A stretch of 64,000 nucleotides of DNA, taken from assembly GCF_005860795.2 (NCBI RefSeq), contig NZ_CP058350.1, forward strand, positions 2,014,501 through 2,078,500, read 5' to 3'. The notes beneath the pieces are model-generated. The model was given only the letters and a program-made list of their open reading frames with translations. It had not been told where the DNA came from and did not search any database. This DNA comes from Peteryoungia desertarenae. Its GTDB lineage: Bacteria; Pseudomonadota; Alphaproteobacteria; Rhizobiales; Rhizobiaceae. Positions 42,596 through 61,720 of this stretch are shown piece after piece. Every line of letters starts with the position of its first letter. Within the stretch, counting starts at the first letter, position 1. Position numbers and translations under genes: made by a program.

Positions 42596-42871
42596 TTGAC
42601 AGAAGAGAGGTTTGGCCCAGCGAAGCACGCAACCAACCGGGTAAAGCATGGTTGACCTCTCGTCTTTGGGCGTAGCATCTTTTCTCATGAGGATCATTTG
42701 ATCATCCCGTCGATCCGGGAAGTGGATTGCGAAGAACGGTTCAAAGTGGTCGGCCTCGTTGGGGGGAAGCTTTACACTGATGTTTTTGTTTGGCGAAATC
42801 GCCTGCCTCGTTTCATATCGGTCAGAAGGAGCAACACAGGTGAAGAACGCGCCGTCAGGCCTGCCGGCTGA
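42596..42871 (+). pseudogene. brnT-like toxin gene interrupted by in-frame TGA
   Basis: The frame from TTG 42596 reads 'ERFGPAKHATNRVKHG', then TGA at 42653-42655 (codon 20), then continues 'PLVFGRSIFSHEDHLIIPS', 'REVDCEERFKVVGLVGGKLY', 'VWRNRLPRFISVRRSNTGEE' and stops at 42869. This is the BrnT toxin pattern, with FDPAK...KHG at the N-terminus and R.ISVRR...E at the C-terminus, split only by the stop. No usable start follows the stop before the conserved core. The 3' end overlaps the start of an antitoxin gene, the normal operon arrangement. The toxin is presumed dead. Confidence 0.8.
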
Positions 42872-43118
42872 TGCCTCCGACATCAAGGATTCCGAAGCCA
42901 CGGAGGAGGCTCTTGATCGCGCACAGCGCGCCCGCATTATCCGCCGGACGCGCAACAGCCTTGGCCTTTCACAGAGCGAATTCGCCACACGCTTTCGCGT
43001 GCCCGTCGGCACGCTGCGCGACTGGGAGCAGGCCTGCGTCACCGCCCCCGATTTCGCCGTCGCCTATGTCAAGGTGATTGCTCAACACCCGGATCTGGTC
43101 GCAGAGGCTTTGGGGTAG
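42840..43118 (+). CDS. Helix-turn-helix antitoxin, partner of BrnT-like toxin
   Basis: This 92-residue protein starts at GTG 42840, 8 bases after AAGGAG, and overlaps the toxin remnant by 32 bp. The helix-turn-helix is 'RNSLGLSQSEFATRFRVPVG' followed by 'TLRDWEQACVTAPDFAVAYV', the typical HTH antitoxin of BrnT/HigB-like pairs. It is intact even though the toxin is broken, so it is now an orphan repressor or a neutraliser of related toxins. Confidence 0.8.
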   Translation: MKNAPSGLPADASDIKDSEATEEALDRAQRARIIRRTRNSLGLSQSEFATRFRVPVGTLRDWEQACVTAPDFAVAYVKVIAQHPDLVAEALG

Positions 43119-43147
43119 GGGCATCTCGCCAGATACGTGATGTTGCC

Positions 43148-43438
43148 TCATGCAGCCGCGGGCTCGATCAGAGGCCGCACCGGCGGCTGTTCATGCTGCA
43201 ACGCCCGCCACAGGTCATGATTGGCCTGCATAGCCATCCAGGCCCGCGCGGTGCCAGCACCTGCCTGTTCGAGACGTACGGCCAGATCCGGGCTGATTCC
43301 GGCCTTGCCGTTCAGCACACGGGAAAAGGCAACGCGCGACATGGCCAGGCGTTCGGCGGCTTCGGTGACAGAAAGCCCAAGCGGAGCAATCACGTCCTCC
43401 TTCAGAATTTCGCCCGGATGAGGCGGATTATGCATCAT
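43148..43438 (-). CDS. higA: HigA-type antitoxin
   Basis: This 96-residue antitoxin starts '[20 protein letters not shown]', the classic HigA N-terminus. The helix-turn-helix is '[20 protein letters not shown]' plus '[20 protein letters not shown]'. It is 13 bp downstream of the toxin gene and probably represses the operon through the palindrome at 43739-43755. Both genes are intact. Confidence 0.92.
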
Positions 43439-43451
43439 CGCTCTATTCCCT

Positions 43452-43730
43452 CTAATGATAGTCCTGATAATCGACCAGCTCGACCCCGCTATCGGTAAAG
43501 CGGAAGGTCACGCGCCAGTTGCCATTGACCCAGACAGACCAATGCCCGGCAAGCTCTCCCTTCAGCGGGTGGAGTCTGAATGATGGGATCGACATGGCTT
43601 GGGGTCCATCAGCGACATCGAGCAAACCTAGTATGCGCCGAAGCTTGTTGGCGTGGGCCGTCTGAATGCCGCGAGTCGAGCCGGTGAGATAAAAAATCTC
43701 TAGGCCTTTGTGCCGAAAGCTAACGATCAT
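43452..43730 (-). CDS. higB: HigB/RelE-type toxin
   Basis: This 92-residue ribosome-dependent mRNA interferase is of the HigB family. '[20 protein letters not shown]' opens it, and the family marks '[20 protein letters not shown]', 'NWRVTFRF' and '[10 protein letters not shown]' close it; the last contains the C-terminal acid and histidine. The toxin precedes the antitoxin, the usual higBA order. No lesion is visible. Confidence 0.92.
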
Positions 43731-43738
43731 GCTAATTT

Positions 43739-43755
43739 GTATCGCGTAGCGATAC
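43739..43755 (-). promoter_or_regulatory. HigA operator palindrome
   Basis: GTATCGC-GTA-GCGATAC is a perfect inverted repeat 8 bp upstream of the higB start, overlapping the expected promoter. It matches the usual form of HigA operators. Binding is inferred. Confidence 0.75.
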
Positions 43756-43821
43756 GGGTGTCAATGTCTTCCGTTGCGGCAAACGCATAAACGCCAGTTG
43801 CTCGGCCGCTCGCTCCTCGCC

Positions 43822-44199
43822 CTACCTCAACACCCCCGTCGCCAGCGCCCGCTGTATCCCGCGCACATCCGTGCCCTTCTTCAGCGTCTTCGTCACCGGC
43901 TGTTCGGCGCCGGAAACCCAGATCTTCAATTCGCTGTCGAGATCGAAGGTGCCGGCGGTCTCGACGGAAAAGCGGGTGATCGCGCGGTAGGGGATGGACA
44001 TATAGTCCACCTTCGAGCCGGTAATGCCCTGCACATCGATCAGGATCAGCCGCTTGTCGGTAAAGGCAAAGACGTCGCGGATGACGCGGAAGGCCAGCGA
44101 CACCCGCTCCCCCTCGATCAGCACACCGTCCAGCCGCTTCGCTAGATCTTGCGGATCGACACTTGATCCATGCCCCAGCAATCCGTCCAGCAATCCCAT
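43822..44199 (-). CDS. PH-domain protein (bPH_1 family)
   Basis: This 125-residue cytoplasmic protein has a bacterial pleckstrin-homology fold similar to YvbH/PF08000. 'LIEGERVSLAFRVIRDVFAF' and 'TDKRLILIDVQGITGSKVDY' are followed by 'SIPYRAITRFSVETAGTFDL' and 'KIWVSG', the strand order of the family. The function is unknown. It diverges from an epimerase gene. Confidence 0.85.
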   Translation of the reverse strand: MGLLDGLLGHGSSVDPQDLAKRLDGVLIEGERVSLAFRVIRDVFAFTDKRLILIDVQGITGSKVDYMSIPYRAITRFSVETAGTFDLDSELKIWVSGAEQPVTKTLKKGTDVRGIQRALATGVLR

Positions 44200-44349
44200 C
44201 TCAGTCCTCCTGTTGTCTCGGAACGGAGATGGGAAGCGGGCGCGCGGCGGTCAAGACGGGGCCGTGCCGGAAACCTACTGAAGCCTCTTACTCTTTCCGG
44301 GCATCTGCGCTATCTGGTCATCAGACAAGTTGAAGCAGGAGGAAAATTC

Positions 44350-45243
44350 ATGGGCAAGCGGATCGTGTTTACCGGCGGCAGCGGCAAGGCGGGGCGCCAT
44401 GTCGTGCCCTATCTTCTTGACCAGGGCCACAAGGTGCTGAATGTCGACCGCACGGTGCTGGATCATCCGGGCGTGCATACGCTGTTGACCGATGTGACCG
44501 ACGCCGGCGAGGTGTTCAATGCGCTCTCCTGTCATTTCGGCTATGACGGCTTTGAGGCGGGCGCAGTCGCCGGCATTCCCGATGCGGTGGTGCATTTCGC
44601 CGCCGTCCCGCGCATCCTGATGAACCCCGACAACAGGACCTTCGTCGAAAACACCACCTCGACCTATAATGTCATCGAGGCCGCCGCCAAGCTCGGCGTG
44701 AAGAAGATCGTGATTGCCTCCTCGGAAACCACCTATGGCGTCTGCTTTGCCGAAGGCGACAAGGATTACAAGGAGTTCCCGCTGACCGAGGATTATGATG
44801 TCGATCCGATGGACAGTTACGGTCTCTCCAAGGTCGTGAATGAAAAGACGGCGCGAGCCTTTGCCATGCGCTTCGGCATCGATATCTATGCGCTGAGAAT
44901 CGGCAATGTCATCTCGCCGGAGGACTATGCCAATTTCCCCGGCTATCTCGCCGATCCGCCATGCCGCAAACGCAATGCCTGGTCTTATATCGACGCCCGC
45001 GATCTCGGCCAGATCGTCGATCTCTGTGTGAAGACGGACGGCCTCGGCTTCCAGGTCTTCAACGCCGTCAACGACACGATCACCGCCACCATCCCGACCC
45101 GCGAATTCCTGGCGAAATATGCGCCGAACACGCCGATCACCGGGGAGATCGAAGGCTTTGCCGCGCCGCTGTCCAACCGCAAGATCCGTCAAGTCCTGGG
45201 CTTCAGGGAGAAGCATGACTGGCGCAACTATGTGAAGGTGTGA
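44350..45243 (+). CDS. NAD(P)-dependent sugar epimerase/dehydratase (extended SDR)
   Basis: This 297-residue enzyme starts at ATG 44350 after AGGAGG. The Rossmann motif is 'VFTGGSGKAGRHVVPYLLDQ' (GxxGxxG), the active site 'YGLSKVVNEK' (YxxxK) with 'ASSETTYG' supplying the serine, and 'ARDLGQIVDLCVKTDGLGFQ' is typical of extended SDRs. The substrate is probably a nucleotide sugar or uronate; uronate dehydrogenase is one alternative. It stands alone. Confidence 0.85.
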   Translation: MGKRIVFTGGSGKAGRHVVPYLLDQGHKVLNVDRTVLDHPGVHTLLTDVTDAGEVFNALSCHFGYDGFEAGAVAGIPDAVVHFAAVPRILMNPDNRTFVENTTSTYNVIEAAAKLGVKKIVIASSETTYGVCFAEGDKDYKEFPLTEDYDVDPMDSYGLSKVVNEKTARAFAMRFGIDIYALRIGNVISPEDYANFPGYLADPPCRKRNAWSYIDARDLGQIVDLCVKTDGLGFQVFNAVNDTITATIPTREFLAKYAPNTPITGEIEGFAAPLSNRKIRQVLGFREKHDWRNYVKV

Positions 45244-45345
45244 GGGCGGACCTTTCTCGTTGCAAGAGCCGGGAGCGGTCATGTGCGACCGCCCCGGTCA
45301 TGGATGGTCCCGCACACCCGGTCCGGGTCCTTCACCGCTCCCCTC

Positions 45346-46047
45346 CTACATGCCCTCGCTCGAAAACGTGCCGTCGCTGTTGTAGGTGACGGTGAAGGTC
45401 GTTGCCCCCGCGCGAAAATCGCATTCTGCCGCATGCGAGATGTCATAGGTAAGTGCGCCACCCCCCGGCTGATAGCCGAGCCTGACATAATAGACAGGCT
45501 CGGCGTGACAGGTGAGGATGCGGTTGGGAGCGGGGGTGACGGCGCTTGAAAGAAGCATGCTGCCGTCGCTTGCCATCACGCCCACTCCGCACAAGAGCTG
45601 CGGGCCAGGCATGGGCGTAAAGCGCGGCACGGCGATGGCGAACATGCCCTCTTCGAGCCCCTCGATGTGTGAGGGCGGACCAAAGGCCAGGGGATCGAGT
45701 GACAGAGGCAACAGGTTCTTTGGCGGATTGGCAGCCAGCATCAGCGGACGGCTGGCGGTCGACAGGCTCGGAATGCTGCGGGACAGAGGCGGCGCGACGG
45801 CTTCGCTGCCATAGAGTGGCGCAGGCACGGGCAGGCTGGAAAGCGCACCGGCATGGACACGCGGGTCCAGCAGGAAGGCGATTTCGCCGCCGCCATGGTT
45901 GTAATTGCCGATCTGGCGACAGCCGAGGCAATTGGAGCGAATGGCGGCGCCATGCAGGGAAGGAAACCGCGCCTGTTTCTGGAAGACGTGGAAATATTGC
46001 GGACTGGCCGAGAGGTTGCGCACGAGGATCTGCAGGACGGTCACCAT
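45346..46047 (-). CDS. Beta-rich protein of unknown family, paralogue of next gene
   Basis: This 233-residue protein has no signal peptide. Its N-terminus 'LVRNLSASPQYFHVFQKQAR' and C-terminus 'CDFRAGATTFTVTYNSDGTF' can be aligned with those of the neighbouring upstream gene product ('NVRSQAALTQDFFFFQEPAV' and 'CDFTGGYTTCNVTLNANGSW'). The middle has 'SIPSLSTASRPLMLAANPPK' and Cys-rich 'SNCLGCRQIGNYNHGGGEIA'. I do not recognise a function. It is 96 bp from its paralogue and probably in the same transcript. Confidence 0.6.
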   Translation of the reverse strand: MVTVLQILVRNLSASPQYFHVFQKQARFPSLHGAAIRSNCLGCRQIGNYNHGGGEIAFLLDPRVHAGALSSLPVPAPLYGSEAVAPPLSRSIPSLSTASRPLMLAANPPKNLLPLSLDPLAFGPPSHIEGLEEGMFAIAVPRFTPMPGPQLLCGVGVMASDGSMLLSSAVTPAPNRILTCHAEPVYYVRLGYQPGGGALTYDISHAAECDFRAGATTFTVTYNSDGTFSSEGM

Positions 46048-46143
46048 GAAAAACCCTCGGTCTGGAAGGCCCGATCTGACGCCATGCGGACAGGGGGTTG
46101 GGCTCTGGTCCGCATGGCGCTGCGTCGGGGTCGGGCAGTCCCC

Positions 46144-46809
46144 TTACAGAAGCTTGGTGCTCCAGCTGCCATTGGCGTTCAGGGTTACGTTGCAGGTGGT
46201 ATAGCCGCCGGTAAAGTCGCAGATGGCCGCATTGACGCTCGACTGGGTGAAGTTCATCACCGTGCCCGGCGTATACTGTCCTGTCTGCACGTAAAACTTC
46301 AGGATCGGCTGGCAATCCGTATGGGAAGCCGGGTTCACCTGGACGAAGTTCGACAGGATGATGCTGCCATTGGCGTTCACCGCCGAGCCGACATTGTAAT
46401 AGGGCGGCGAGGAGAAGGTCGGCGTCGTGATGCGGAATGCGCCGGCCTGCACGCCGGAGCCATTGACCGGGACGGAAAGCCCGAGCGCCGGCGAAATGGT
46501 CGCCGTCGTCCAGTCATTCCCGGACCCGTCGACCGAGGCAAGGTCGATGGGCTGGGCGGCGGAGGCAAAGCCCGTGCTGGCGCCGACGCGCGGCAGGCTG
46601 TTGCTCTGCTGGATGCCGGCATAGTACTGAAGGTTCACCTTGAAGGTCAGCACGGACCCCGTCTCGGTGAAGTTCGACAGAAAGCCGGAAAACAGGCTGT
46701 TGGAATAGACCTGGCTGCCGCCGGTATAGACGGCAGGCTCCTGGAAGAAGAAGAAGTCCTGCGTCAGGGCCGCCTGGCTCCGGACGTTGATGGTCAGCAA
46801 TGTCGACAT
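46144..46809 (-). CDS. Beta-rich protein of unknown family
   Basis: This 221-residue protein starts at ATG 46809 after AGGAAAGG. It is rich in Ser, Thr, Asn, Gly and aromatic residues, with no signal peptide. Notable parts are 'DFFFFQEPAVYTGGSQVYSN', 'TFKVNLQYYAGIQQSNSLPR', 'CQPILKFYVQTGQYTPGTVM' and the C-terminal 'CDFTGGYTTCNVTLNANGSW'. The pattern suggests a beta-sandwich, perhaps a secreted, self-assembling or lectin-like protein, but this is only inference. An XRE regulator gene lies just upstream on the same strand. Confidence 0.65.
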   Translation of the reverse strand: MSTLLTINVRSQAALTQDFFFFQEPAVYTGGSQVYSNSLFSGFLSNFTETGSVLTFKVNLQYYAGIQQSNSLPRVGASTGFASAAQPIDLASVDGSGNDWTTATISPALGLSVPVNGSGVQAGAFRITTPTFSSPPYYNVGSAVNANGSIILSNFVQVNPASHTDCQPILKFYVQTGQYTPGTVMNFTQSSVNAAICDFTGGYTTCNVTLNANGSWSTKLL

Positions 46810-46984
46810 GAAAGAAACCTTTCCTCTGGGTGTTGAACGCAGGGCCTTGCAACCGCCTTTCAGGAGGGGATGCCCCACCCACTCATCCGCGTCGCAATCC
46901 CTGACAGCAATCTTTAGGTGTATAGTGCCGTCAAGAAAAGCATAACGTGTATATCTGGGCGCAAAACATCCCCCGGCTTCTCGT

Positions 46985-47335
46985 CTAGCGCGATGTGTTC
47001 TCCGGTTTGATCACCTCCACCAGTTCAACGACCAGCTTGCGGATTTTGGCCGGTCGTTCCCTGAGCGCCAGAATCCATTCCAGTTCCCGGGGATTGATGA
47101 GATTGTCCCGGTGCCAGTCCAGCGTGCCGCGCCCCAGAAGCAGCCAGTCCAGCGAGATGTCGAGCGTCTCGGCCAGGGCGCAGGCATTGTCGAGCGACAG
47201 GTCTCCGCCGTTCTGCCAGCGCGAGACGGCTGCCACCGAAACATGCAGTTCTGCGGCAAGGGCATGCGCCTTGCCGATCTTGCGCTTGGCCATGGCCTGG
47301 CGAATGCGCTGCCCGCGAGCCTTGTTTTCCGTCAT
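46985..47335 (-). CDS. XRE-family transcriptional regulator
   Basis: This 116-residue regulator starts at ATG 47335 after AAGGAG. The Cro/CI helix-turn-helix is 'IGKAHALAAELHVSVAAVSR' plus 'WQNGGDLSLDNACALAETLD', followed by 'ISLDWLLLGRG'. It lies 175 bp upstream of the two paralogous beta-rich protein genes, in the same direction, and may control them. A dyad repeat lies 120 bp upstream of its start. Confidence 0.85.
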   Translation of the reverse strand: MTENKARGQRIRQAMAKRKIGKAHALAAELHVSVAAVSRWQNGGDLSLDNACALAETLDISLDWLLLGRGTLDWHRDNLINPRELEWILALRERPAKIRKLVVELVEVIKPENTSR

Positions 47336-47456
47336 GGTAAACTCCTTATGGTTGAAGGTTCCAAACAAACAACCATTAGGTGTTTTGAATTGCAAGACAT
47401 TCGTAAAGTTGAAATAAAGGGCCGGTTAAGCCTTTCCCCCTGTCCTGGCCCAAAAT

Positions 47457-47479
47457 ATACCCCTTAATTTAGAGGGTAT
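47457..47479 (-). promoter_or_regulatory. Inverted repeat upstream of XRE regulator gene
   Basis: ATACCC (47457-47462) and GGGTAT (47474-47479) flank an AT-rich 11-bp spacer. It lies between the XRE gene and a divergent small gene. A similar arrangement, CCCCA-N7-TGGGG, occurs at 50585-50601 upstream of another beta-rich protein gene, so both could be sites of one regulator. Confidence 0.4.
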
Positions 47480-47664
47480 TTATGTTAGCGTTGCCAAAAG
47501 CTCGAAGCTCTCCAGCGCGAGGACCGGTGCTGGGACTGGTTCCGGTGACGGGGACGGGATGGGGCGAGGCGGGCGGCAGCAGACGGGTGATGATGGAAGC
47601 ATCGGCAGGAGAGGGCGGTTCCTGTCACGGTATATCGGCACAGACCGGGATATGGGGAGGAAAC

Positions 47665-47937: not shown

Positions 47938-48223
47938 TCGCCTGTCCCCCTGTCTTTCGCGGGAAAGCTGGAAGCAAGGGGGCGGATGAGGGGGCAAGCC
48001 TCTGCAGACCACCCGCCGATCGCGCCCGCCATCTTGTTTATGAGCGAATTCGACAGTATCCTCTTCACAGGATTCGCCATTTGCAATCCCACACGCGAGG
48101 CCCGGACGAAGCGCGGATGACGGCGCTCTGCCCCGGCTGACGAGTAGAAAAGCACCCGCGGGCCCTGTCTTCGACATCATGTCGCCGGCCACCTGATCGG
48201 GGCATGTCCCGGCAGGAAAATCC

Positions 48224-48651: not shown

Positions 48652-48774
48652 CTTGAGCCCACCCCAAATCCCCCCAATCACGAAACAATCCTCTGCTTTC
48701 CCCGTTCGGATGAGAGCGGCGCCGCAGGTTGGCGTCTGAAGTCCATGGGAGAACAATCAAGAGAGGATTTGATC

Positions 48775-49254
48775 ATGTTCAAGACAATGACGGGCGCGCT
48801 TGCCGCCTCCACCTTTGCGCTGACGCTGATCGCCGGCCCCGGCTATGCGCTGGATGAGGCCGCCGAAACGGCCAAGGCTGCGGGCCGCGCGCAGATGGCG
48901 GATTATTCGGCCTTTGACAGTGATGGCACGCCGGGCATTTCCAGTGCCGAATTCCGTGCCGCCTTCCAGCGCAACCAGGCCTTCGCCACCTGGGACGACG
49001 ACGATGACGGCAATCTCACCAAGGCCGAATTCGAGGCCGGGCTTGGCAATCGTCAGGAGCGGTTCGAACAGCGCTTCGGCGAGAACTGGTTCGAAACCTG
49101 GGATGAAGATGGCAGCGGCGCCGTGAGCGAAACGGAATACTACGAAGGCCTGCACGGCAGCTATGACGCCAACCGCGACGGCATGATCGACGAGCCGGAA
49201 TACAGCAGCTTCGGCCAGGACATGGGCGAGGACGGCTGGTTCGAGATCGAGTGA
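48775..49254 (+). CDS. Exported EF-hand calcium-binding protein
   Basis: This 159-residue protein starts at ATG 48775 after GAGAGG. A signal peptide 'MTGALAASTFALTLIAGPGY' is cleaved near residue 25. EF-hand-like loops are 'FDSDGTPGISSAEF', 'WDDDDDGNLTKAEF', 'WDEDGSGAVSETEY' and 'YDANRDGMIDEPEY', several with canonical Asp/Asn and a closing Glu. The first has an odd Thr-Pro insertion. The C-terminus 'DMGEDGWFEIE' is shared with the next gene. It is probably a periplasmic or extracellular calcium binder. Confidence 0.85.
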   Translation: MFKTMTGALAASTFALTLIAGPGYALDEAAETAKAAGRAQMADYSAFDSDGTPGISSAEFRAAFQRNQAFATWDDDDDGNLTKAEFEAGLGNRQERFEQRFGENWFETWDEDGSGAVSETEYYEGLHGSYDANRDGMIDEPEYSSFGQDMGEDGWFEIE

Positions 49255-49437
49255 TGTCCCAGGCCTTTTTCCCTTAGCCCCCAGGCTTTCGACGAGGATC
49301 GGAAGGACCGGCGGAAACAAACCCGCCGCTTCTCTGTTGGGTGGGCCAGGGCGCTGCAAAAGGCGCCCGCTGAACAAGATGAGGCGCCCGTCGCGGGTGC
49401 CCGCAACTTGCGAGAAAAATCAGGAAAGGAATTGATG

Positions 49438-49878
49438 ATGTTGAAGAAAATGACGAGCGCGCTGGCCGCGTCCACCTTTGCCCTGTCGCTCATTGCCGCC
49501 CCGGCAATGGCCCAGACGATGAACAATGACTATCAGAGCTGGGATACCGATGGCACACCGGGCATCAGTGACCAGGAATTCCGCACCGGCTTTGGAAACA
49601 ACGAAGCCTTCAACACCTGGGATGCCGATGACGACGGCAATCTGACCGAGGACGAGTTCAACACCGGCCTTGGCGACAATCGCGAACGCTTCGACGCCCG
49701 CTATGGCGACAGCTGGTTTGATGACTGGGATGCCGACGGCAATGATATGGTCAACGAGGACGAATATTATGGCGGCCTCTATGACACCTATGACGCCGAC
49801 GACAACAACCTGATCGAGGAACCCGAATTCGGCGATGTCGGCGACGACATGGGCGACGAAGGCTGGTTCGACGTCTGA
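49438..49878 (+). CDS. Exported EF-hand calcium-binding protein (tandem paralogue)
   Basis: This 146-residue protein starts at ATG 49438 (or 49435) after AGGAAAGG. The signal peptide 'MTSALAASTFALSLIAAPAM' ends in AMA-Q. EF-hand loops 'WDTDGTPGISDQEF', 'WDADDDGNLTEDEF', 'WDADGNDMVNEDEY' and 'YDADDNNLIEEPEF' follow in the same order as in its neighbour, and it ends 'DMGDEGWFDV'. It clearly arose by tandem duplication; the copy is shorter near the N-terminus and more acidic. Confidence 0.85.
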   Translation: MLKKMTSALAASTFALSLIAAPAMAQTMNNDYQSWDTDGTPGISDQEFRTGFGNNEAFNTWDADDDGNLTEDEFNTGLGDNRERFDARYGDSWFDDWDADGNDMVNEDEYYGGLYDTYDADDNNLIEEPEFGDVGDDMGDEGWFDV

Positions 49879-50126: not shown

Positions 50127-50459
50127 TCAGCTCAGGGCAAACGCCGCCTCATGGGTGGTGTCCAGCGTCTCCGTCGAAGTGACCTTGCTCATTTTGAAGG
50201 TGAACAGCGTGCCGTTATACATGGGCGAGACGATGCCGGTGCCTGCACCATTGGCGTGGTTGCCGGTCCATACCGTGTAATAGCTTCCGAAGCTTGGATA
50301 GAAGTTCAACTCATTGATGAAATTGCCCTTGCCATCTTCGACCCAGGTGCCGAGCTTGATGCCATTGGCATACGAGAAACCGTTGGAGTTGAAGGTCCAG
50401 GTGGCCTTGGAGCCGTTGTCGACGTTGAAAATCCAGGTTGTATTGCTGAGCGAAGACAT
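50127..50459 (-). CDS. Small beta-rich protein of unknown function
   Basis: This 110-residue protein starts at ATG 50459 after GGGAAGGA, with no signal peptide. It consists almost wholly of alternating Trp/Phe/Tyr and Gly/Asn strands: 'TTWIFNVDNGSKATWTFNSN', 'GFSYANGIKLGTWVEDGKGN', 'YYTVWTGNHANGAGTGIVSP'. This suggests a small beta barrel of lipocalin or avidin type, but no family is recognised. The composition resembles the paralogous pair at 45-47 kb. Confidence 0.6.
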   Translation of the reverse strand: MSSLSNTTWIFNVDNGSKATWTFNSNGFSYANGIKLGTWVEDGKGNFINELNFYPSFGSYYTVWTGNHANGAGTGIVSPMYNGTLFTFKMSKVTSTETLDTTHEAAFALS

Positions 50460-50916
50460 GAGTGTTCCTTCCCGGCGCGCCGCACCAGTTTTGTGGGGTT
50501 TTGTGTGTGAAAGCCTGATCACCTCGTCACGCCGTTCTGCGGCGCGCGATCAATTTCTAGGAGAGTTAGTTATCTCGAACAAGCCCCATTTATATTGGGG
50601 TTTTGCGGTATATTCGATAGAAAATTTCGGCCAAAGCCGCAATTGTCATATCACTTAAAGGTTGAGAGAAACACCGTTCTTCATGCGCGTCGATGCGCAA
50701 GGTCAAAGAGCGACTCATCCGCACGCAAAAGAAGAGTGCGTCGCCTCGCGCCCTGAAGGGGAAGGCTGGTCTCGTGGCAGCGAAAAGGCGGCTCTGCGCC
50801 GCCCCTTCGTCATGCAAGTCCGGTTGCTCGGCCCGTGCCCCCGTCGTGCAGAAGGCTTTGCCAGCCCTTGGCCGGCGTGAGCCCTCATCGCGGGTGTGGA
50901 GCCTGTGGTCTGTGCC
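50460..50916. promoter_or_regulatory. 457-bp gene-free region with AT-rich promoter and dyad
   Basis: Around 50570-50640 the DNA is AT-rich and carries CCCCA-TTTATAT-TGGGG (50585-50601) and TATATT-like boxes, about 125 bp upstream of the beta-rich protein gene on the minus strand. The part next to cheW (50660-50916) shows no supported gene. Confidence 0.4.
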
Positions 50917-51623: not shown

Positions 51624-52034
51624 ATGAAACGCATTGTCGCGACATTCTTTGTTACGGAAGAAGGGGCGGAGCCGGTGAGAGCGTGGCTCATGTCCTTGTC
51701 GAAAGAGGATCGCCACATCATTGGCGCCGATATTGCCTCTGTCGAATTCGGCTGGCCGATCGGCATGCCTGTTTGTCGTCCAATCCGGGATGGCGTGCGC
51801 GAAGTGCGGTCGAGCATCAGGGCCGGAACGGTGGAAGTGCGGACCTATTTCGGCATTGATGGCGCCACCATGCTTCTCCTTCATGGAGAAGAAGGCAAGG
51901 ACGGTCAGCAGGATGCGATAAAGCTTGCGGTAAGCGCTGGAAAGAGCACCAGGTGCGATCCCGGCGGGCAAGGAAGGCAGACAAGAGGACACGAAAATGA
52001 TCGAATCAAACACCTCGTCCGGTGGTACGCTTGA
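51624..52034 (+). pseudogene. HigB/Gp49-like toxin with frame-scrambled C-terminus
   Basis: The start at ATG 51624 follows AAGGAG. The first 90 residues are a normal phage-derived Gp49/HigB toxin: 'DGVREVRSSIRAGTVEVRTY' and 'GIDGATMLLLHG'. The family then expects F-x-K-K..., which is found in the +1 frame ('FMEKKARTVSR'). 'DAIKLAVS' follows in the original frame, then 'RWKEHQVRSRRARKADKRTR' in the +2 frame. The +2 frame stops at TGA 51998, overlapping the antitoxin ATG as ATGA. The present frame instead ends at 52034 with an unrelated tail. Accumulated small indels are the simplest explanation. Confidence 0.7.
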
Positions 52035-52290
52035 GGACTTTCTCGATGAACTGGGCGAGAAGGAAGAAGTTTATGGGGAGGCGCTGAAGCGCGTGCTCTC
52101 CTGGCAGATCGAACAGGCGCGCAAGCAACAGTCGATCAGCAAGTCCGATATGGCGAGGACAATGGGCACCAGTCGTACCCAGGTGGACCGGGTCCTTGAT
52201 CCCAGCAACATTGCCGTCTCCCTCGATACGCTGGAGCGGGCGGCCCGTTCCGTGGGTAAAAGGCTGAAGGTTGAACTGATCGACAGATAA
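51997..52290 (+). CDS. HigA/XRE-type antitoxin
   Basis: This 97-residue protein has an N-terminal region that ends in 'LKRVLSWQIEQARKQQSISK', followed by the helix-turn-helix 'SKSDMARTMGTSRTQVDRVL' and 'SLDTLERAARSVGKRLKVEL', typical of HigA2-like antitoxins paired with Gp49-like toxins. It is intact and starts within the toxin reading region. Confidence 0.85.
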   Translation: MIESNTSSGGTLEDFLDELGEKEEVYGEALKRVLSWQIEQARKQQSISKSDMARTMGTSRTQVDRVLDPSNIAVSLDTLERAARSVGKRLKVELIDR

Positions 52291-52396: not shown

Positions 52397-53203
52397 ATGC
52401 TGTCGCTTGTCCGCAAAACCCCGATCCTTGGCGCATTGATGGCGCAGGTCGTTGCCATGCCGCTGGTGGCGGCGGTAACGGCGCTTCTTTCGGGCATGGT
52501 CGACCAGACCCCGCTGATTGCCTTCGCCCTGTTCCTGCAAGGGGCAATCGCTGCCGTGATCTGCCGGCTCTTCGGCCTTGCCAGCTGGTGGCTGCTGATT
52601 GCCTTTCTCTTTCCGCTCGCCATGGCCGGCACCATGTTTGTCGGCAATCTGCCCGCCTGGCCCTTCGGCATCGCCTTTCTGCTGCTGGCCTTCGTCTTTT
52701 CCAACACCACGCGCGGTCGCGTGCCGCTCTATCTCACCAATGCGGCCACCGAACAGACGCTCGCCGATCTCGTGCGTGAGCGTGGTGCACGGCATTTCAT
52801 CGATCTCGGCTCGGGCCTTGGCGGTGTCGTGCGCAAGGTCGCCGAACGCGTGGAAGGGGTGGAGGCGCTGGGCGTCGAAACCGCACCCGGTCCTTTTCTC
52901 GTCTCCTGGCTGAAATCGCGGCTCTCCGGCCATGGCGAAATCCGCCGGCAGAACCTGTTCCTGACGGATCTGTCGAAGGCCGATGTCGTCTATGCCTTTC
53001 TTTCGCCCACCCCCATGCCCGCCCTTTACGAACGCGCCCGCGCCATGATGAAGCCCGGCAGCCTCTTCGTCTCCAACAGCTTCGCGGTCCCGGACGTTAC
53101 CCCGAGCGAAATCTGGGAACTCGACGACCGCCGCAAGACCCGGCTCTATCTCTATGAAATGGGGGAGGGCAGTTCCCCCACATCTGCGAAATCGGAGGTT
53201 TAG
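52397..53203 (+). CDS. Membrane-anchored class I SAM-dependent methyltransferase
   Basis: This 268-residue protein starts at ATG 52397 with GGAG six bases upstream. Residues about 8-105 hold three to four membrane helices ('ALMAQVVAMPLVAAVTALLS', 'ASWWLLIAFLFPLAMAGTMF'). The methyltransferase fold follows: motif I 'FIDLGSGLGGVVRKVAERVE', motif II 'LGVETAPGPF', and 'ADVVYAFLSPTPMPALYERA'. The arrangement resembles small membrane-bound methyltransferases of the ATPSCKMT type. The substrate is unknown. It overlaps the end of the convergent ParE gene by 4 bp. Confidence 0.8.
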   Translation: MLSLVRKTPILGALMAQVVAMPLVAAVTALLSGMVDQTPLIAFALFLQGAIAAVICRLFGLASWWLLIAFLFPLAMAGTMFVGNLPAWPFGIAFLLLAFVFSNTTRGRVPLYLTNAATEQTLADLVRERGARHFIDLGSGLGGVVRKVAERVEGVEALGVETAPGPFLVSWLKSRLSGHGEIRRQNLFLTDLSKADVVYAFLSPTPMPALYERARAMMKPGSLFVSNSFAVPDVTPSEIWELDDRRKTRLYLYEMGEGSSPTSAKSEV

Positions 53204-53514
53204 CCCTCGAAGTCGTAGTCATCTTCGATGGCCACGGACGGCGGTTTTTCGCGCCCATGCCGGATCGTCAGAATTCGGATCTCCGTGTCCAGGATTTCAT
53301 AGTCCACGAGATAGGCGCCCATCACGAAACACCGAAGGTTGGGAACGGGAAGCTCGTGATCTGCTTTGCCCAGATGGCTGAACCGGGCCAAGTTGCCCCG
53401 CATGGTTTTCAACGAGGCCTGAAAGTCCCGAGCGGCCCCGGCATTGACCGAAACTAGATAGCGGGCCTCGCGCTTGATATAGTCCGCCGCGACAAGCGAA
53501 ACCGTGACCTTCAT
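53200..53514 (-). CDS. parE: ParE/RelE-superfamily toxin
   Basis: This 104-residue toxin has 'VSLVAADYIKREARYLVSVN' as the first helices and 'LRCFVMGAYLVDYEILDTEI' plus 'IRILTIRHGREKPP' as the core, the standard ParE pattern. It overlaps the antitoxin gene by ATGA. No lesion is visible, so this pair looks functional. Confidence 0.88.
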   Translation of the reverse strand: MKVTVSLVAADYIKREARYLVSVNAGAARDFQASLKTMRGNLARFSHLGKADHELPVPNLRCFVMGAYLVDYEILDTEIRILTIRHGREKPPSVAIEDDYDFEG

Positions 53515-53771
53515 GCAGCACTGTCTCGAACGATCAGGTCGACCGCCTTGATCACATCGTCGAGATCTTCACCTTCGCCATTTTCCATGGCCTGCCGGGC
53601 GGCAGCGATTTCCAGGATCTCCTTGCCCTCGGTCGCCAGATAGCTCTTCAGCGCACGGACAAAGACCCAGCTGCGACTGCGATCACAAATGGCGGCAATC
53701 GCCTCGATATCGGAAAGCATATCCTTGGGCAGGCGCATGGTGATCGGATCTGACAGCTGACGATCTGACAC
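53511..53771 (-). CDS. parD: Ribbon-helix-helix antitoxin (ParD/CopG-like)
   Basis: This 86-residue protein has the ribbon strand 'SDPITMRLPKDMLSDIEAIA' and then 'CDRSRSWVFVRALKSYLATE', typical of CopG/ParD antitoxins. The C-terminus is acidic ('ENGEGEDLDDVIKAVDLIVR') and wraps the toxin. It is first in the operon behind a dyad operator. Confidence 0.88.
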   Translation of the reverse strand: MSDRQLSDPITMRLPKDMLSDIEAIAAICDRSRSWVFVRALKSYLATEGKEILEIAAARQAMENGEGEDLDDVIKAVDLIVRDSAA

Positions 53772-53778
53772 GATTTTT

Positions 53779-56719: not shown

Positions 56720-56739
56720 GGAAAGAAAGGCCCAAAAAC

Positions 56740-57000
56740 TCAGTTATCCCTGCTTTCGCGAATGCTGCGCGCCTGCCTGGCAATGGATCTCAGCTCCAGC
56801 CAAAGGCCAAAGATGGCTACCGGTATGCCCACTCCAAACAGAAGGATCATGACTAAAGTGTCCCTGTCCCTCTCGGTGGGGTTCGTGACTCCATTGAGCA
56901 GGGTCATAGTGGGAAGCAAGAAATACAAGAAAATGCGAAAGGCCGCACCGGCATCAATCGCCCGAATCCAATCCCGAAGTGATGTTTCTCTTCGTTTCAT
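56740..57000 (-). CDS. Small two-helix membrane protein of unknown function
   Basis: This 86-residue protein has two hydrophobic helices ('AAFRIFLYFLLPTMTLLNGV' and 'TLVMILLFGVGIPVAIFGLW') with a basic N-terminus and tail. No clear ribosome site is seen, and base composition is lower in GC than nearby genes. I do not recognise a family. Confidence 0.45.
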   Translation of the reverse strand: MKRRETSLRDWIRAIDAGAAFRIFLYFLLPTMTLLNGVTNPTERDRDTLVMILLFGVGIPVAIFGLWLELRSIARQARSIRESRDN

Positions 57001-57084
57001 AGTCGAAAATCAGGCCTTCCGTGATTGCGAGTGCTGACTGCGAACAGTGGCGTGGCATCTTTGCCCCACGGATCTCGGCCAACC

Positions 57085-57408
57085 TCACCCGATCCCCATG
57101 AATACCGCAAGGCTGCGCGTCACCTGCAGCATGGTCGCCTCGTCCAGTTGGCCGATTAGCCTGCCGACCTTGTCGCGCCTGATCGACATGATCTTGTCCA
57201 CCATGATCTGAGAAGGCAGGGTCAGGCCGTTGAGTGGCGTGGGGGAAACAGAAATCCGCAACAGGCTGGCTTCAATCACCGTGCTGGTCATCAGCAACAC
57301 TGTGACGGTTCCGGTGTCTTGAAAACTGTCGCTCTGGATGATCAGGGCTGGGCGCGGCTTGCCGAAGTCGCCGGATATGGCAACAGTGACGATATCGCCG
57401 CGCTTTAC
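57085..57408 (-). pseudogene. mazF/pemK toxin gene with lost start codon
   Basis: The frame reads 'VKRGDIVTVAISGDFGKPRP', 'ALIIQSDSFQDTGTVTVLLM', 'TSTVIEASLLRISVSP' and 'LPSQIMVDKIMSIRRDKVGR', a complete MazF/PemK ribonuclease of 107 residues. The codon at its expected start (57408-57406) is GTA, not GTG. Family neighbours usually overlap as GTGA with the antitoxin stop; here it is GTAA, so the antitoxin stop became TAA and stayed functional. The next in-frame start lies 36 codons downstream (about 57300), beyond the conserved first strands. The toxin is therefore probably silent or very weakly made. Confidence 0.75.
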
Positions 57409-57632
57409 CCATTATCCTCCGCGAGGTCCAGATCCGCCAGCGCGTCATCGAGAAGTTCGTGAAGTCCCGGGTCCCTCCGGTCAGCCTCGGCTGTCAGCCT
57501 CGCCTGGCGCGCGCATTCCTCGGCAAAGCCGGGACGCCGTGTGTCGGGCAGCCAGATCTGGACAGGGCGCAACCCTTGCGCCCTGAGGCTTTCACGTCTC
57601 TTCTGTACGCGATGTCCCACAGGGGTCGCCAT
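57405..57632 (-). CDS. MazE-family antitoxin (DUF3018)
   Basis: This 75-residue antitoxin has 'RVQKRRESLRAQGLRPVQIW' and 'LPDTRRPGFAEECARQARLT', the diagnostic DUF3018 pattern, and an acidic end 'LLDDALADLDLAEDNG'. It is first in the operon and overlaps the toxin frame by 4 bp. It is intact. Confidence 0.88.
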   Translation of the reverse strand: MATPVGHRVQKRRESLRAQGLRPVQIWLPDTRRPGFAEECARQARLTAEADRRDPGLHELLDDALADLDLAEDNG

Positions 57633-57707
57633 CGCACGCCTCCTTATCGCCTAAGACGTTACATGTAACACATACCGGCCATGTTGCCAACCGGATGCAT
57701 CCAACCC

Positions 57708-58502
57708 TCACTCCACCTTCTGCATCGACCAAAGCGTCCGCACATCGCTCCCCGTCGCGGGGCCGCCGAGCATGGGGCCGGGGACGGTGCCGGGGCCGAA
57801 GCCGGCCGCAGGGGGCGCGTTGGAAAGTGCATTGGCCGCCTCGCGGGCAAAGTCGAAGGCCAGCTTGTTGAGGCGAGGGGAGGCGCCGTATTCGGGCGCC
57901 TTGGGACCGCTCATGGAAACGGTGATCGAGCCGTCGTCGGTCTTGGTGATCGGCGCAATCTCCTGAAGCGGCTGGCCGGTCTGCACGTCATAGATGCGAA
58001 GCCCCGCCACCAGTTGCGGCGTGTCCGGCCGCCGTACCCCGTCGATCGTGACCTCCGCGCCGGTCAGCTGCTGCAGGCTGAGCCGGCTGCGGATGAAGAC
58101 GGAATAGACGACGACCTCGGCCCGTGCCGGCCGCGTGCCCTTGAACAGTGGCGTCAGCTGGTCGCGCAGATGCGGGGTGATGTGGGCATTGATCGCCTGC
58201 TGCATTGCCGCCTGCCGGGCCTGTTGATTGGTCAGGCCGAGCCGTGTTCCAAGCCCATCGATGGCCGAAGACGAAACCGACCGGTTGATGTCGCCCTCAA
58301 GATCGGACACCAGCAGCGGCTGGTTCAGCTGCGAATAATCGACCGTGATCTCGGCGAGCGAATACTGGGCGAGGGAGCTTGAGCCCTGCGGCGCGGATGG
58401 CGCCTGGCAGGCCGCAAGCAGGGATAGCAGGGCGGCGGCAAGGGTGTAGCGGACAGCCTGAAAAAACGGACGATCGCTGAAAAAGCAGGGCATGAAAATC
58501 AT
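57708..58502 (-). CDS. Putative lipoprotein of unknown function
   Basis: This 264-residue protein has an N-terminal signal with a lipobox 'LLSLLAAC', so it is a probable lipoprotein with Cys about 32. The mature part has 'AEITVDYSQLNQPLLVSDLE', 'VEVVVYSVF'-like strands and 'LRIYDVQTGQPLQEIAPITK', and it ends in a Gly/Pro-rich tail. I do not recognise a function. ATG 58493 is an alternative start. Its promoter region faces the MarR operon. Confidence 0.6.
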   Translation of the reverse strand: MIFMPCFFSDRPFFQAVRYTLAAALLSLLAACQAPSAPQGSSSLAQYSLAEITVDYSQLNQPLLVSDLEGDINRSVSSSAIDGLGTRLGLTNQQARQAAMQQAINAHITPHLRDQLTPLFKGTRPARAEVVVYSVFIRSRLSLQQLTGAEVTIDGVRRPDTPQLVAGLRIYDVQTGQPLQEIAPITKTDDGSITVSMSGPKAPEYGASPRLNKLAFDFAREAANALSNAPPAAGFGPGTVPGPMLGGPATGSDVRTLWSMQKVE

Positions 58503-58647
58503 GGAAAACCCTCGCCGGAAAGAATGGGCGAAGAGTGAGGCCTGTCGCTGTCTCGGTCAAGCCGGCAACGAGGGGCGAGGCTGCTGGTCGATGCCTTCGG
58601 TTCCTGTTTTTGAAGCGCTGCCACCTCCCGATACAATCAGATCAAGC

Positions 58648-58676
58648 CCATATTGACAATCTAATTGTCAATATGG
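58648..58676 (+). promoter_or_regulatory. MarR operator: 29-bp perfect palindrome
   Basis: CCATATTGACAAT (58648-58660) and ATTGTCAATATGG (58664-58676) form a perfect inverted repeat around CTA. TATAAT follows at 58681-58686, and the MarR start is at 58690. A TTGACA box is embedded in the left arm. This is a textbook position for autorepression by the downstream MarR protein. Confidence 0.8.
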
Positions 58677-58689
58677 CATCTATAATGTC

Positions 58690-59142
58690 ATGAGAAAAAT
58701 CGAGCAGCTTTATCGACTGATCTGGTTGTCGCGTCCGCTGATGCAGGCGGCGGAGGCCTGTGTCGAGCGGGGGCTGGATGGCACGAGCTTGACGGTGAGA
58801 ATGCGCGCCATCCTCGAAATCCTGTCCGCCCATGGCAGCGCGACCGTTCCGGATCTTGCCATGCGGCTTGAGATCAAGCGGCAATATGTCCAGCTGATGG
58901 TCAACGAAACGCTGGCCGAAGGCCTAACGGTTGCCCGGCCGAACCCGCGCCACAAGCGCTCCACGCTGATTGCCCTGACGCCGAAAGGGCAGGGCCTGAT
59001 CGAAGAGGTCGTCGCCCGCGAGAAGCGGCTGCTCGAACAGATGGGCACTGACATGGACGAGAGAGATATCGTCACCGCGCTCAAACTCGTTGAAACACTG
59101 ATCGGCAAGCTGAAGACCCATTCGGGAGAACAATTCAGATGA
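58690..59142 (+). CDS. MarR-family transcriptional regulator
   Basis: This 150-residue winged-helix regulator has 'MRAILEILSAHGSATVPDLA' and 'MRLEIKRQYVQLMVNETLAE' as the DNA-binding helices, and a wing 'PRHKRSTLIALTPKGQGLIE'. It is followed by, and overlaps by 4 bp, an isochorismatase-like hydrolase gene. The perfect palindrome just upstream is its likely operator. The ligand is unknown. Confidence 0.9.
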   Translation: MRKIEQLYRLIWLSRPLMQAAEACVERGLDGTSLTVRMRAILEILSAHGSATVPDLAMRLEIKRQYVQLMVNETLAEGLTVARPNPRHKRSTLIALTPKGQGLIEEVVAREKRLLEQMGTDMDERDIVTALKLVETLIGKLKTHSGEQFR

Positions 59143-59771
59143 CCGGCACGCTTTTGATCGTGGCAGGCCTTGCCGTCCTTGCCGGGCTCTTCTGGCTCGC
59201 CAATGGTGTGCGCCAGATCGGGGCCGTCAGCAGTGGTGTGCCGATCGGGCAGCGTTCCGGTACGGCCTTGCTCTTGATCGACCTTCAGGCGGTGTTCTGG
59301 GACGAAGGGCCCTATGCCGGCGCGGCCAAGGCCGATGCCAAAGCGGCGATCCTTGCCGAAGTGTCGGCAGCCAGGGCCGAGGCCATGCCCGTCATTGCGC
59401 TGCGCCAGGAGTGGTCCATTCCCTCGACCAGGCTCATCGCGCGCCTCCTGATGAAAGGCCAGGCGTTAAGCGGCACGCCGGGAACCGCGCTTGCGGCCCC
59501 CTTTGCCGGGCTCGCCGATCATGTCCTGGTCAAGAGGGTGCAGGATTCCTTCGAGACCGGCGAACTGGACGCGCTTTTGGAAAAGCTCGACATCGGCAGG
59601 CTCAGGATTGTCGGACTGGACATGAATTATTGCGTGGCCAAGACGGCACTTGCCGCTCGGCTGCGGGGCTATGCCGTGGAGATCGTTACCGCTGCGACCC
59701 TCGCGGCCAATCCGGCCGCCACGGCGCGCACCTGTGCAGCGCTCGCCGAACATGGTGTGGCGCTGCGATAG
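59139..59771 (+). CDS. Membrane-anchored isochorismatase-family cysteine hydrolase
   Basis: This 210-residue protein has an N-terminal membrane helix ('LLIVAGLAVLAGLFWLANGV'), unusual for this family. The catalytic triad is Asp in 'ALLLIDLQAVFWDEGPYA', Lys in 'HVLVKRVQDSFETGELDALL' and Cys in 'RIVGLDMNYCVAKTALAARL'. It probably hydrolyses an amide such as nicotinamide-like or ureido compounds, but the substrate is not predictable. It is co-translated with marR (ATGA overlap). Confidence 0.88.
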   Translation: MTGTLLIVAGLAVLAGLFWLANGVRQIGAVSSGVPIGQRSGTALLLIDLQAVFWDEGPYAGAAKADAKAAILAEVSAARAEAMPVIALRQEWSIPSTRLIARLLMKGQALSGTPGTALAAPFAGLADHVLVKRVQDSFETGELDALLEKLDIGRLRIVGLDMNYCVAKTALAARLRGYAVEIVTAATLAANPAATARTCAALAEHGVALR

Positions 59772-60017
59772 AATAGCCCGGGGTCTTGCTGCGGGTGGCC
59801 CGTTCTTGGTGCCAAACGAAGGCGCCCTCTCCACGAAATCACAGGCGCCCTGTCGCAAGTCCTTGGCGGAAAAGGATTTTCGGTTCGATACTTGTCGTTT
59901 TCCGCACCGGTTATACCACTCTCCCGAAGCGATGCAGGAGATGGTCGCGATGCTGATCTTGAAGACAGCAGCCCATGCGATACGGTCGCTTGAGGTATTG
60001 GCGCAGGAGCATGAGAC

Positions 60018-60455
60018 ATGAAGGCAGAAAAGACCACAAAGCCGAAGAAACCGACCGACTGGCGCAAGCGCTTCAGCGCCGCCAAGGAGCCGCATGTGGT
60101 CATGCTCTCCTCGCCCTTTGCCGGCGTGCCATCAGGCGCGATGATGCTGATTTCCTCGCCGGGCGAGATCGCGCGTTATGTCGCCGCGATCCCCGCAGGC
60201 GAAACCCGGACCATCGCGCGGTTGCGCAGCGACCTTGCCAGACGGGCCAAGGCGGATGCGATGTGCCCGGTCACCACGTCGATCTATCTGCGTGTCGTCG
60301 CCGAAGTGGCGCTCGACGAGCTGGAGGCGGGAAAGCCGATGGACGAGGTCGTGCCCTTCTGGCGCGTCATCGAGCCGAAGGACAAGCTCGCCGCCAAACT
60401 CTCCTGCGGGCCGGAACGCCTCGAACATTTGCGGGCGCTGGAGGCGGGAGGCTGA
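60018..60455 (+). CDS. Rhizobial protein with faint MGMT-like C-terminal region
   Basis: This protein has 145 residues. 'KPTDWRKRFSAAKEPHVVML' opens it, then 'LISSPGEIARYVAAIPAGET', 'DLARRAKADAMCPVTTSIYL' and 'VVPFWRVIEPKDKLAAKLSC'. 'VPFWRV' sits where methylguanine methyltransferases have P-C-H-R-V, and the helix before it resembles the recognition helix of alkyltransferase-like proteins, but this is weak. The Cys is absent there. Lysine-rich N-terminus, no signal. The 246 bp before it hold no gene. Confidence 0.6.
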   Translation: MKAEKTTKPKKPTDWRKRFSAAKEPHVVMLSSPFAGVPSGAMMLISSPGEIARYVAAIPAGETRTIARLRSDLARRAKADAMCPVTTSIYLRVVAEVALDELEAGKPMDEVVPFWRVIEPKDKLAAKLSCGPERLEHLRALEAGG

Positions 60456-60480
60456 TACCGCGCGCGTCCGTGCGCAACCG

Positions 60481-61002
60481 TCACCCCCAGAGCCCCGGCT
60501 GCATCCAGGGGCCGGGCAGAACCAGCTGACCCTGAAGCGGCTCGCTGTCGCCATCGGGTCTCAGCCATTGCCAGGCTTCCGCATAGGCCTCCGGCAGGGG
60601 GTAGGGTGGGGTGATGCGGGCATGGGGGTGAAAACCGGAGCGGCTGTAATAGGCCGGATCACCCAGCACCAGCACCTCGGCCACGCCCGCATCTTTCAGG
60701 CAGGCAAGCCCCTCGGCAATCAGCGCCTTGCCGATGCCATGCCGCTGATGCTCGGGATTGACCGCAAGCGGCCCGAGCAGTGCGACCGTCTCTAAAGCAC
60801 CCTCCAGTGTTCCATGGGTGAAGAGGACATGCCCCACCAGCGCCTCGCCCGAAATCGCCGAAAGCGACAAGACGCCGGCCTTTTCCTCAAGCAGCGCCTC
60901 AACCAGCGGCAAAAGATCTTCGTCAGGAAAGGCCGCGGCATAAAGCGCCGGGATCTGTGCCGTGTCCGTGGGGTCTGTCTTGCGCAGGGTGAAGGCGGCC
61001 AT
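60481..61002 (-). CDS. GNAT N-acetyltransferase
   Basis: This 173-residue acetyltransferase starts at ATG 61002 after GGGGAGGAAAC. 'FTLRKTDPTDTAQIPALYAA' and 'PLAVNPEHQRHGIGKALIAE' (the acetyl-CoA loop) are visible, followed by 'GVAEVLVLGDPAYYSRSGFH', typical of the YhbS/predicted N-acetyltransferase group. The substrate is unknown. An upstream in-frame extension is rejected. Confidence 0.88.
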   Translation of the reverse strand: MAAFTLRKTDPTDTAQIPALYAAAFPDEDLLPLVEALLEEKAGVLSLSAISGEALVGHVLFTHGTLEGALETVALLGPLAVNPEHQRHGIGKALIAEGLACLKDAGVAEVLVLGDPAYYSRSGFHPHARITPPYPLPEAYAEAWQWLRPDGDSEPLQGQLVLPGPWMQPGLWG

Positions 61003-61136
61003 GGTTTCCTCCCCGAAAATGCCATGCATTTGACTAGGACGCGGCCGGCTTTGAGGCAAGTGGTGGGGGGCGGTCCGCAGCGCGTGCTTCTTGTTGTTGT
61101 CATGCAAATGAAGTACAGTTTTGGCAGGAGGCCACG

Positions 61137-61439
61137 ATGACCAACAGCTTAGTCCAGACCCGGATCGATCCTGAAATCCGCGACCGCGCTGCCGAAGTGC
61201 TGGAGCGCATGGGCCTGACCGTATCCGATGCCGTGCGCATCCTTCTGACCCGCACCGCCCGCGAAGGCGCACTTCCGATCGAACTCCTGGCCGATCCTGA
61301 AGTGCACGACGCCTGGTTTCGCCAGAAAGTGCGCGAGGCGCTGGAGGATGACCGGGAAGACCTCGGTGAAGACGAGGTGAAGGCGCTCTTTGCCGAGCGC
61401 AGGGCGAGGGTGCGTTCGAAAACCGGTACAGAGCCTTGA
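61137..61439 (+). CDS. relB: RelB/DinJ-family antitoxin
   Basis: This 100-residue antitoxin starts at ATG 61137 after AGGAGGC. The ribbon-helix-helix is 'TNSLVQTRIDPEIRDRAAEV' plus 'MGLTVSDAVRILLTRTAREG', the DinJ/RelB pattern. The C-terminus is charged ('EDDREDLGEDEVKALFAERR'). Its stop overlaps the TTG start of the toxin frame by TTGA. Confidence 0.9.
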   Translation: MTNSLVQTRIDPEIRDRAAEVLERMGLTVSDAVRILLTRTAREGALPIELLADPEVHDAWFRQKVREALEDDREDLGEDEVKALFAERRARVRSKTGTEP

Positions 61440-61720
61440 AACTCACCTGGTCGGCTTAGGCGGTCAGCGATCGCATGCAGATCTTCGGCTATATTGAAGC
61501 CGATAACCCAAAAGCAGCCTTGCAGATGGATGAGCGGATCGAAGAGGCCGCCGCACAACTGCTGCATTTTCCGGAAAGTGGGCGGTCGGGTCGTGTCCAA
61601 GGAACGCGCGAGCTTGTTGTCAGCGGCACCAGCTACATTATCGCCGATCAGCTTGATGGTGATCGCCTGCGAATCCTGAGGGGTTTGCACTCCTCCCGTC
61701 TCTGGCCAGACGACCTTTGA
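61436..61720 (+). pseudogene. ParE/RelE toxin gene with amber stop at codon 8
   Basis: From TTG 61436, overlapping the antitoxin stop, the frame reads 'KLTWSA', TAG at 61457-61459, then 'AVSDRMQIFGYIEADNPKAA', 'LLHFPESGRSGRVQGTRELV' and 'VSGTSYIIADQLDGDRLRIL', a normal ParE toxin. Only the amber codon breaks the expected opening. An ATG at 61475 could start an 81-residue product lacking the first strand. ParE proteins need that region to fold, so the toxin is probably inactive or attenuated. Confidence 0.8.

Follow-up and report, generated by a model that had tools for sequence, protein, structure and literature searches.

Why would one stretch of a bacterial chromosome carry several toxin-antitoxin (TA) modules in which the toxin gene is damaged and the antitoxin gene still reads through? 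The question is posed by a 64-kb stretch of the Peteryoungia desertarenae genome (hereafter the window). It lies on a 3.59-Mb contig; the 4.34-Mb genome assembly comprises 3 contigs and is 99.99% complete. Between 42.6 and 61.7 kb of the window, four toxin genes (BrnT-family, HigB-like, MazF/PemK and ParE-family) each carry a different lesion, which is a substitution in BrnT, MazF and ParE and a frameshift in the HigB-like gene. At all four loci the frame of the partner antitoxin is open. An earlier note on this DNA had listed four toxin lesions, four antitoxins without a lesion and a set of operon overlaps; all are present in the sequence, with the correction that the HigB-like lesion is a single frameshift.

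Our preferred explanation, which we consider very likely, is that four unrelated chromosomal type II TA modules are at an early stage of neutral decay, in which the toxin goes first. The reverse order should be lethal: a cell that lost the antitoxin while its toxin was still active would be killed, leaving as survivors the lineages in which the toxin lesion came first. Once the toxin is damaged, the antitoxin would be free to decay, and the window antitoxins have not yet decayed. The probable reason is that the lesions arose recently in comparison with the divergence from the nearest species examined.

Four toxin genes with different lesions

Domains were called with Pfam and NCBIfam profiles at their curated cut-offs. 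The BrnT-family toxin gene (42596..42871, forward strand) carries the reported in-frame TGA at 42653-42655, which is codon 20 when numbered from a TTG at 42596. This TTG lies one codon upstream of the start position of the relatives, which in the window is also occupied by a non-start codon. The piece 3' of the stop matches PF04365 (E 5.4e-9), as expected of the toxin of a BrnTA module, and BrnT is full length and in one frame in 11 of 15 related loci. Its best homologue among the matches listed (120 of 791), the window's own fragments aside, is 79% identical. The database protein on the window's own contig is a BrnT shortened to 49 residues (P0224). The BrnT product is very probably dead. Its partner antitoxin (42840..43118, forward strand) starts from a GTG inside the BrnT frame, has an open frame and matches the helix-turn-helix (HTH) family HTH_3 (PF01381, E 4.7e-6). 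BrnTA modules are defined by an antitoxin, BrnA, of the ribbon-helix-helix type; the Pfam and NCBIfam scans returned no BrnA-type match here, and the BrnT partner is instead an HTH_3/MqsA-like HTH protein.

The HigB-like toxin gene (Gp49 / HI1419-upstream type; 51624..52034, forward strand) was recognized from alignment to relatives and a match to TIGR02683 that falls under the curated cut-off (E 9.9e-5). Alignment to full-length relatives places a single frame change between positions 51920 and 51944 (residue 100-107 of the 125), so the toxin is not full length in one frame. The earlier note had described its C-terminus as frame-scrambled: the damage stands, and the scrambling reduces to this one frameshift. 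The first 90 residues are 79% identical to an intact homologue. Inactivation by this frameshift is less certain than the note implied, and the predicted protein, with at least 100 of 125 residues kept, may retain some activity. The toxin gene lies 5' of a gene for a HigA-like, HTH-type antitoxin (51997..52290, forward strand), the order of HigBA-like modules of the HI1419 type, although the profile matches of both partners are below cut-off; the antitoxin has an open frame and homologues in relatives.

At the third locus, a MazE-like antitoxin gene (57405..57632, reverse strand; PF11455, E 1.9e-26; frame open) lies 5' of a MazF/PemK toxin gene (57085..57408, reverse strand), and the two frames overlap at 57405-57408 in the arrangement of MazEF/PemIK modules. 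The mazF frame is open over 107 codons and matches PemK (PF02452, E 1.2e-22). In place of the usual toxin start codon, however, it has GTA, as the note had observed, where each of the 20 related loci carries GTG or TTG. A full-length 107-residue MazF with 93% identity to that of the window is found on a 949-base contig (P0001), and the database protein on the window's own contig is a MazF shortened to 102 residues (P0002). MazF is probably translated little or not at all.

The last pair consists of a RelB/DinJ antitoxin (61137..61439, forward strand; PF04221 and TIGR02384; frame open) followed by a RelE/ParE-superfamily toxin gene (61436..61720, forward strand; PF05016), the composition of a RelB-ParE module. 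Its toxin frame is interrupted at codon 8 by the TAG that had been reported (61457-61459), the only stop counted for this gene in our genome survey. The piece 3' of the TAG matches PF05016 (E 8.1e-11), and the best ParE homologue among the 31 matches listed, the window's own fragments aside, is 64% identical. The database protein on the window's own contig is a ParE shortened to 81 residues (P0121), and we regard the ParE product as very probably dead.

Sequencing or assembly errors could mimic such lesions, and the frameshift in the HigB-like gene is of the kind to be expected, since the usual errors of long reads are indels. The other three lesions are substitutions rather than indels, two creating a stop codon and one altering the start codon. 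Moreover, the four antitoxin frames and the large genes near the lesions are open, the assembly has the contiguity and completeness given above, and relatives carry toxin lesions of their own. Taken together, we find it extremely improbable that the lesions are errors.

Order of loss in related genomes

We searched 63 genomes of the genus (62 besides that of the window; 58 of the 63 at least 90% complete) with each window antitoxin and each window toxin piece, with up to 30 loci returned per search. The 54 loci outside the window with an antitoxin identity of at least 64% were classified (20 by MazE, 15 by the BrnT antitoxin, 8 by HigA and 11 by RelB), and the state of each toxin was read off alignments to intact references. 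RelB relatives at 51-60% (L116-L118, L129 and L130) and weaker matches were left outside this set; among these, L116 apparently has a disturbed ParE.

The toxin is intact in 45 of the 54 loci, a count that includes L025, with a frame that overruns the usual stop, and L113, which differs in its first few residues. Intact toxin homologues, one of the two outcomes that the earlier note had named as support, are thus present in relatives. In eight further loci an open antitoxin frame accompanies a toxin that is broken or missing: MazF is frameshifted in L030 and BrnT in L048 and L057, BrnT is absent from L059 and HigB from L079, and L108, L109 and L112 have no ParE. In the ninth, L060, toxin and antitoxin each carry a frameshift. 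None of the 54 loci has an intact toxin beside a broken antitoxin. Were either order of loss equally probable, an 8:0 outcome would arise with a chance of 1 in 256. A stricter count of 5:0 (1 in 32) allows for the fusion shared by L108 and L109 and for the alteration of RelB in all three ParE-less loci.

Anchoring the search on antitoxins biases it towards loci with readable antitoxins, and the toxin-anchored searches, in which close matches only were classified, were meant as an offset. They added two more damaged MazF remnants without MazE (L231 and a split copy in G079, in the same state as L139), and no intact toxin among the close matches classified lacked its antitoxin. Later stages are also represented. 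In RelB of L112 the expected ATG is replaced by ACG and the end is altered; a shard remains of MazE in L135 and of RelB in L147; and L139 has MazF spread over three frames and no MazE. The genus therefore presents a series from intact pair through broken toxin, both genes broken and antitoxin shards to slots without a detectable pair. The window modules, in which a toxin lesion precedes any antitoxin lesion and whose later stages occur in relatives, have the features of decaying chromosomal type II modules.

Two of the four modules occupy a single slot between a YkgJ-like gene and a copper ATPase gene (56.7-61.8 kb of the window). A similar neighbourhood was found in Rhizobium, in Peteryoungia strains and in other Rhizobiales, and the content of the slot varies by species: MazEF, MazEF plus RelB-ParE, remnants or none of these. 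Among the 19 named loci compared at the slot (E 1e-4 or better), full-frame MazF and MazE are found in seven (L131, L133, L136, L138, L142, L143 and L146), two of which, L131 and L138, also carry RelB and ParE. Loci such as L132, L134, L140 and L149 have both flanks and no match to MazE, MazF, RelB or ParE, the only four proteins sought. One could imagine this slot as a recurrent site of TA landing and decay in the genus, where, as at nearby sites, some disarmed antitoxins are retained temporarily because they confer immunity to related plasmid toxins, a scenario to which we give little credence.

At the ParE-less loci L109 (1501-2409) and L108 (same gene on the other strand, RelB match at 1504-1755), which belong to two species, the first ~84 residues of RelB are in frame with a 219-residue stretch, and RelB may here be fused to a new partner. 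This stretch had no match in Pfam, NCBIfam or PADLOC, and its plasmid homologues are distant (4 records, 25-32%). It contains an R-N-R-F-V-H motif, which we take to resemble that of HEPN proteins.

The earlier note went further and saw repeated toxin loss as a trait of this strain, which the strain-wide survey does not bear out. The survey counted in-frame stops in ParE- and PIN-family genes over near-full profile coverage, a procedure to which wholly lost toxins are invisible. It found such stops in 1 of 9 ParE-family genes of the genome, that of the window itself, and in none of 14 PIN-family genes. With two MazF-like genes, one BrnT-like and one HigB-like, this makes 27 surveyed toxin genes, 4 of them damaged and all four of these in the window, versus 6 damaged among 51 detectable toxins in relatives. 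The two fractions have the same order of magnitude and come from different family mixes. The 51 comprise 49 loci that were reached through the antitoxin and have a toxin still detectable, four of them damaged (L030, L048, L057 and L060), and the two toxin-only remnants. On these counts, we rejected a strain-wide toxin purge.

Selection on toxins and antitoxins

The note had also asked for the ratio of nonsynonymous to synonymous rates (dN/dS), toxins and antitoxins apart. We fitted two-ratio codon models with approximate optimisation; the sets for the window excluded near-identical taxa as well as loci whose toxin is broken or missing. On the window branches, dN/dS was 0.055 for MazF, 0.131 for the BrnT piece and 0.014 for the HigB piece (below background; 2dlnL, twice the log-likelihood difference, 3.7), and among antitoxins 0.052 for MazE, 0.102 for the BrnT antitoxin, 0.069 for HigA and 0.152 for RelB. 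All values are far below 1, and none of the three toxins or four antitoxins shows a significant rise on these branches, whose saturation makes the window test uninformative. Such low values are compatible with lesions that arose late on the branch. The fit for the window branch of ParE, with an unlimited branch length (2dlnL 8.8), was discarded.

The ratio of changes at positions 1+2 to those at position 3 is slightly above that of relatives in all four window toxins and mixed in the antitoxins. At otherwise invariant sites, ParE has changed at 6 of 40 (the highest of 6 taxa) and MazF at 3 of 38 (none higher of 13), whereas neither BrnT (7 of 43) nor HigB (2 of 65) is raised. The corresponding antitoxin counts are 0 of 26 in MazE, 2 of 63 in HigA and 2 of 53 in RelB. 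The BrnT antitoxin, however, has changed at 12 of 66 such sites, the highest of 3 taxa, which speaks against a simple contrast between toxins and antitoxins.

We also placed antitoxins of relatives with broken or lost toxins in the foreground, using 16 of 20 MazE loci, 11 of 15 BrnT antitoxin loci, 10 of 11 RelB loci and all 8 HigA loci. Each family offered one to three foreground branches, and the window antitoxins stood in the background despite their broken toxins. RelB whose toxin has been lost evolves at a dN/dS of 0.32 versus 0.08 in the background (2dlnL 6.7), and MazE beside broken MazF at 0.45 versus 0.10 (2dlnL 4.1), with neutrality not rejected. In the one close pair compared, L048 with a broken BrnT and L047 with an intact one, the BrnT piece differs at 6 of 63 residues and the BrnT antitoxin at 1 of 90, a hint that the broken toxin changes faster.

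Several observations weigh against neutral, toxin-first decay. BrnT antitoxins beside broken or missing toxins have a dN/dS of 0.06 with neutrality rejected (2dlnL 44.6), HigA beside a missing HigB has 0.024 on a saturated branch, again with neutrality rejected (18.8), and RelB, though raised, stays below neutral (5.7). Because the window branches are long, with saturated third positions, the recency of the lesions rests mainly on MazF. Some residual activity of the HigB-like and MazF genes is also conceivable. Finally, four of seven pairs are damaged in one 64-kb window, above the expectation from 6 of 51, in a window that was chosen for this feature.

The constraint on orphan antitoxins is also what would be seen if the toxins had been lost and the antitoxins kept by selection to neutralise related plasmid toxins. 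All four antitoxins do have plasmid homologues. Three Rhizobium plasmids carry HigA-like homologues at 79-80%, and the annotation has a RelE/ParE-family toxin at the match. Among the matches listed, RelB homologues on Agrobacterium and Rhizobium plasmids reach 72.6% over 95% of the length, with 1 of 577 plasmid records in the 80-90% band. MazE homologues reach 70-75% over 73-77% of the length (80% of the length is covered in 0 of 245 records) and BrnT antitoxin homologues 64-69%, again among the matches listed. This anti-addiction model has a precedent in ccd of Erwinia (PMC2654758). Yet the broken BrnT pieces of two of the constrained lineages also have a low dN/dS (0.085), so the low dN/dS of the antitoxin need not postdate the lesion. 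In addition, orphan RelB and MazE beside broken MazF look relaxed, and RelB of L112 has lost its ATG. For the window antitoxins, an anti-addiction role is possible but unsupported, and we judge this explanation unlikely.

That the antitoxins are retained, irrespective of the toxin, because they bind DNA and regulate their own or other operons seems less likely still. The BrnT partner has an HTH match above cut-off, RelB matches its family and the HTH matches of the HigA-like protein are below cut-off; the persistence of the RelB N-terminal part within the open frames of L108 and L109 also accords with such a role. Against it stands the raised dN/dS of RelB and MazE. Special retention of the antitoxins is not shown: dN/dS is raised in these two families, L112 and the antitoxin shards show later loss, and dN/dS stays low for the BrnT antitoxin and HigA.

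Toxin-first decay is a known process, both the decay of chromosomal modules and the anti-addiction model having been published. Chromosomal modules that decay and toxins that drift to inactivity are described in PMC7167474 and PMC2654758, both of which cite the decay of ccdO157 in Escherichia coli (Mine et al. 2009). Like ccdO157, the present modules are chromosomal type II systems decaying within a related group; unlike it, they are four unrelated modules in one rhizobial chromosome stretch, and the comparison runs between species, not between strains. Orphan antitoxins reported in Klebsiella (PMC7192599) similarly have no working toxin, many of them lying near an intact pair; that study is a population survey by sequence identity, whereas here the toxin lesions themselves are located. 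The ccd system of Erwinia chrysanthemi resembles ours in pairing a chromosomal antitoxin with plasmid-borne relatives, except that there neutralisation was demonstrated (Saavedra De Bast et al. 2008, per PMC2654758 and PMC7167474), while here the relatives are known as sequence homologues.

What the genus offers is a natural series of TA decay, from intact pair to none detectable, with two of the four modules at one slot. It could allow the order of loss and the later selection on orphan antitoxins to be measured. A strain that disarms its toxins and keeps the antitoxins for protection is not needed as an explanation.

Undamaged pairs and other features of the window

The earlier note had listed a PIN, a HigBA and a ParDE pair without a lesion. 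The toxin frames of all three, and the antitoxin frames of the latter two, are indeed open. The undamaged HigBA pair comprises HigA (43148..43438, reverse strand; TIGR02607, E 1.2e-28) and HigB (43452..43730, reverse strand; PF05015, E 3.5e-21). The second ParE toxin (53200..53514, reverse strand; PF05016, E 1.9e-9) has no stop and is paired with a probable ribbon-helix-helix antitoxin (53511..53771, reverse strand) that matches RHH_1 below cut-off (E 0.0087). The PIN-domain toxin gene (26712..27146, reverse strand; PIN_3, E 7e-15) is likewise free of stops and overlaps a downstream 91-codon frame, a candidate partner with only a weak YlcI/YnfO match, the two spanning 26440-27146. If that frame is indeed the partner, the pair would have a toxin-first gene order.

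Elsewhere in the window, the open frames at 45346-46047, 46144-46878 and 50127-50522 have no Pfam match at E 0.01. Two adjacent small look-alike genes lie at 48745-49254 and 49408-49878, the second of which, the only one scanned, matches EF-hand. 5' of the copper ATPase gene, a stretch of ~29 bases (61732-61760) is 97% identical in two relatives (G009 and G005) and resembles a metal-regulator operator.

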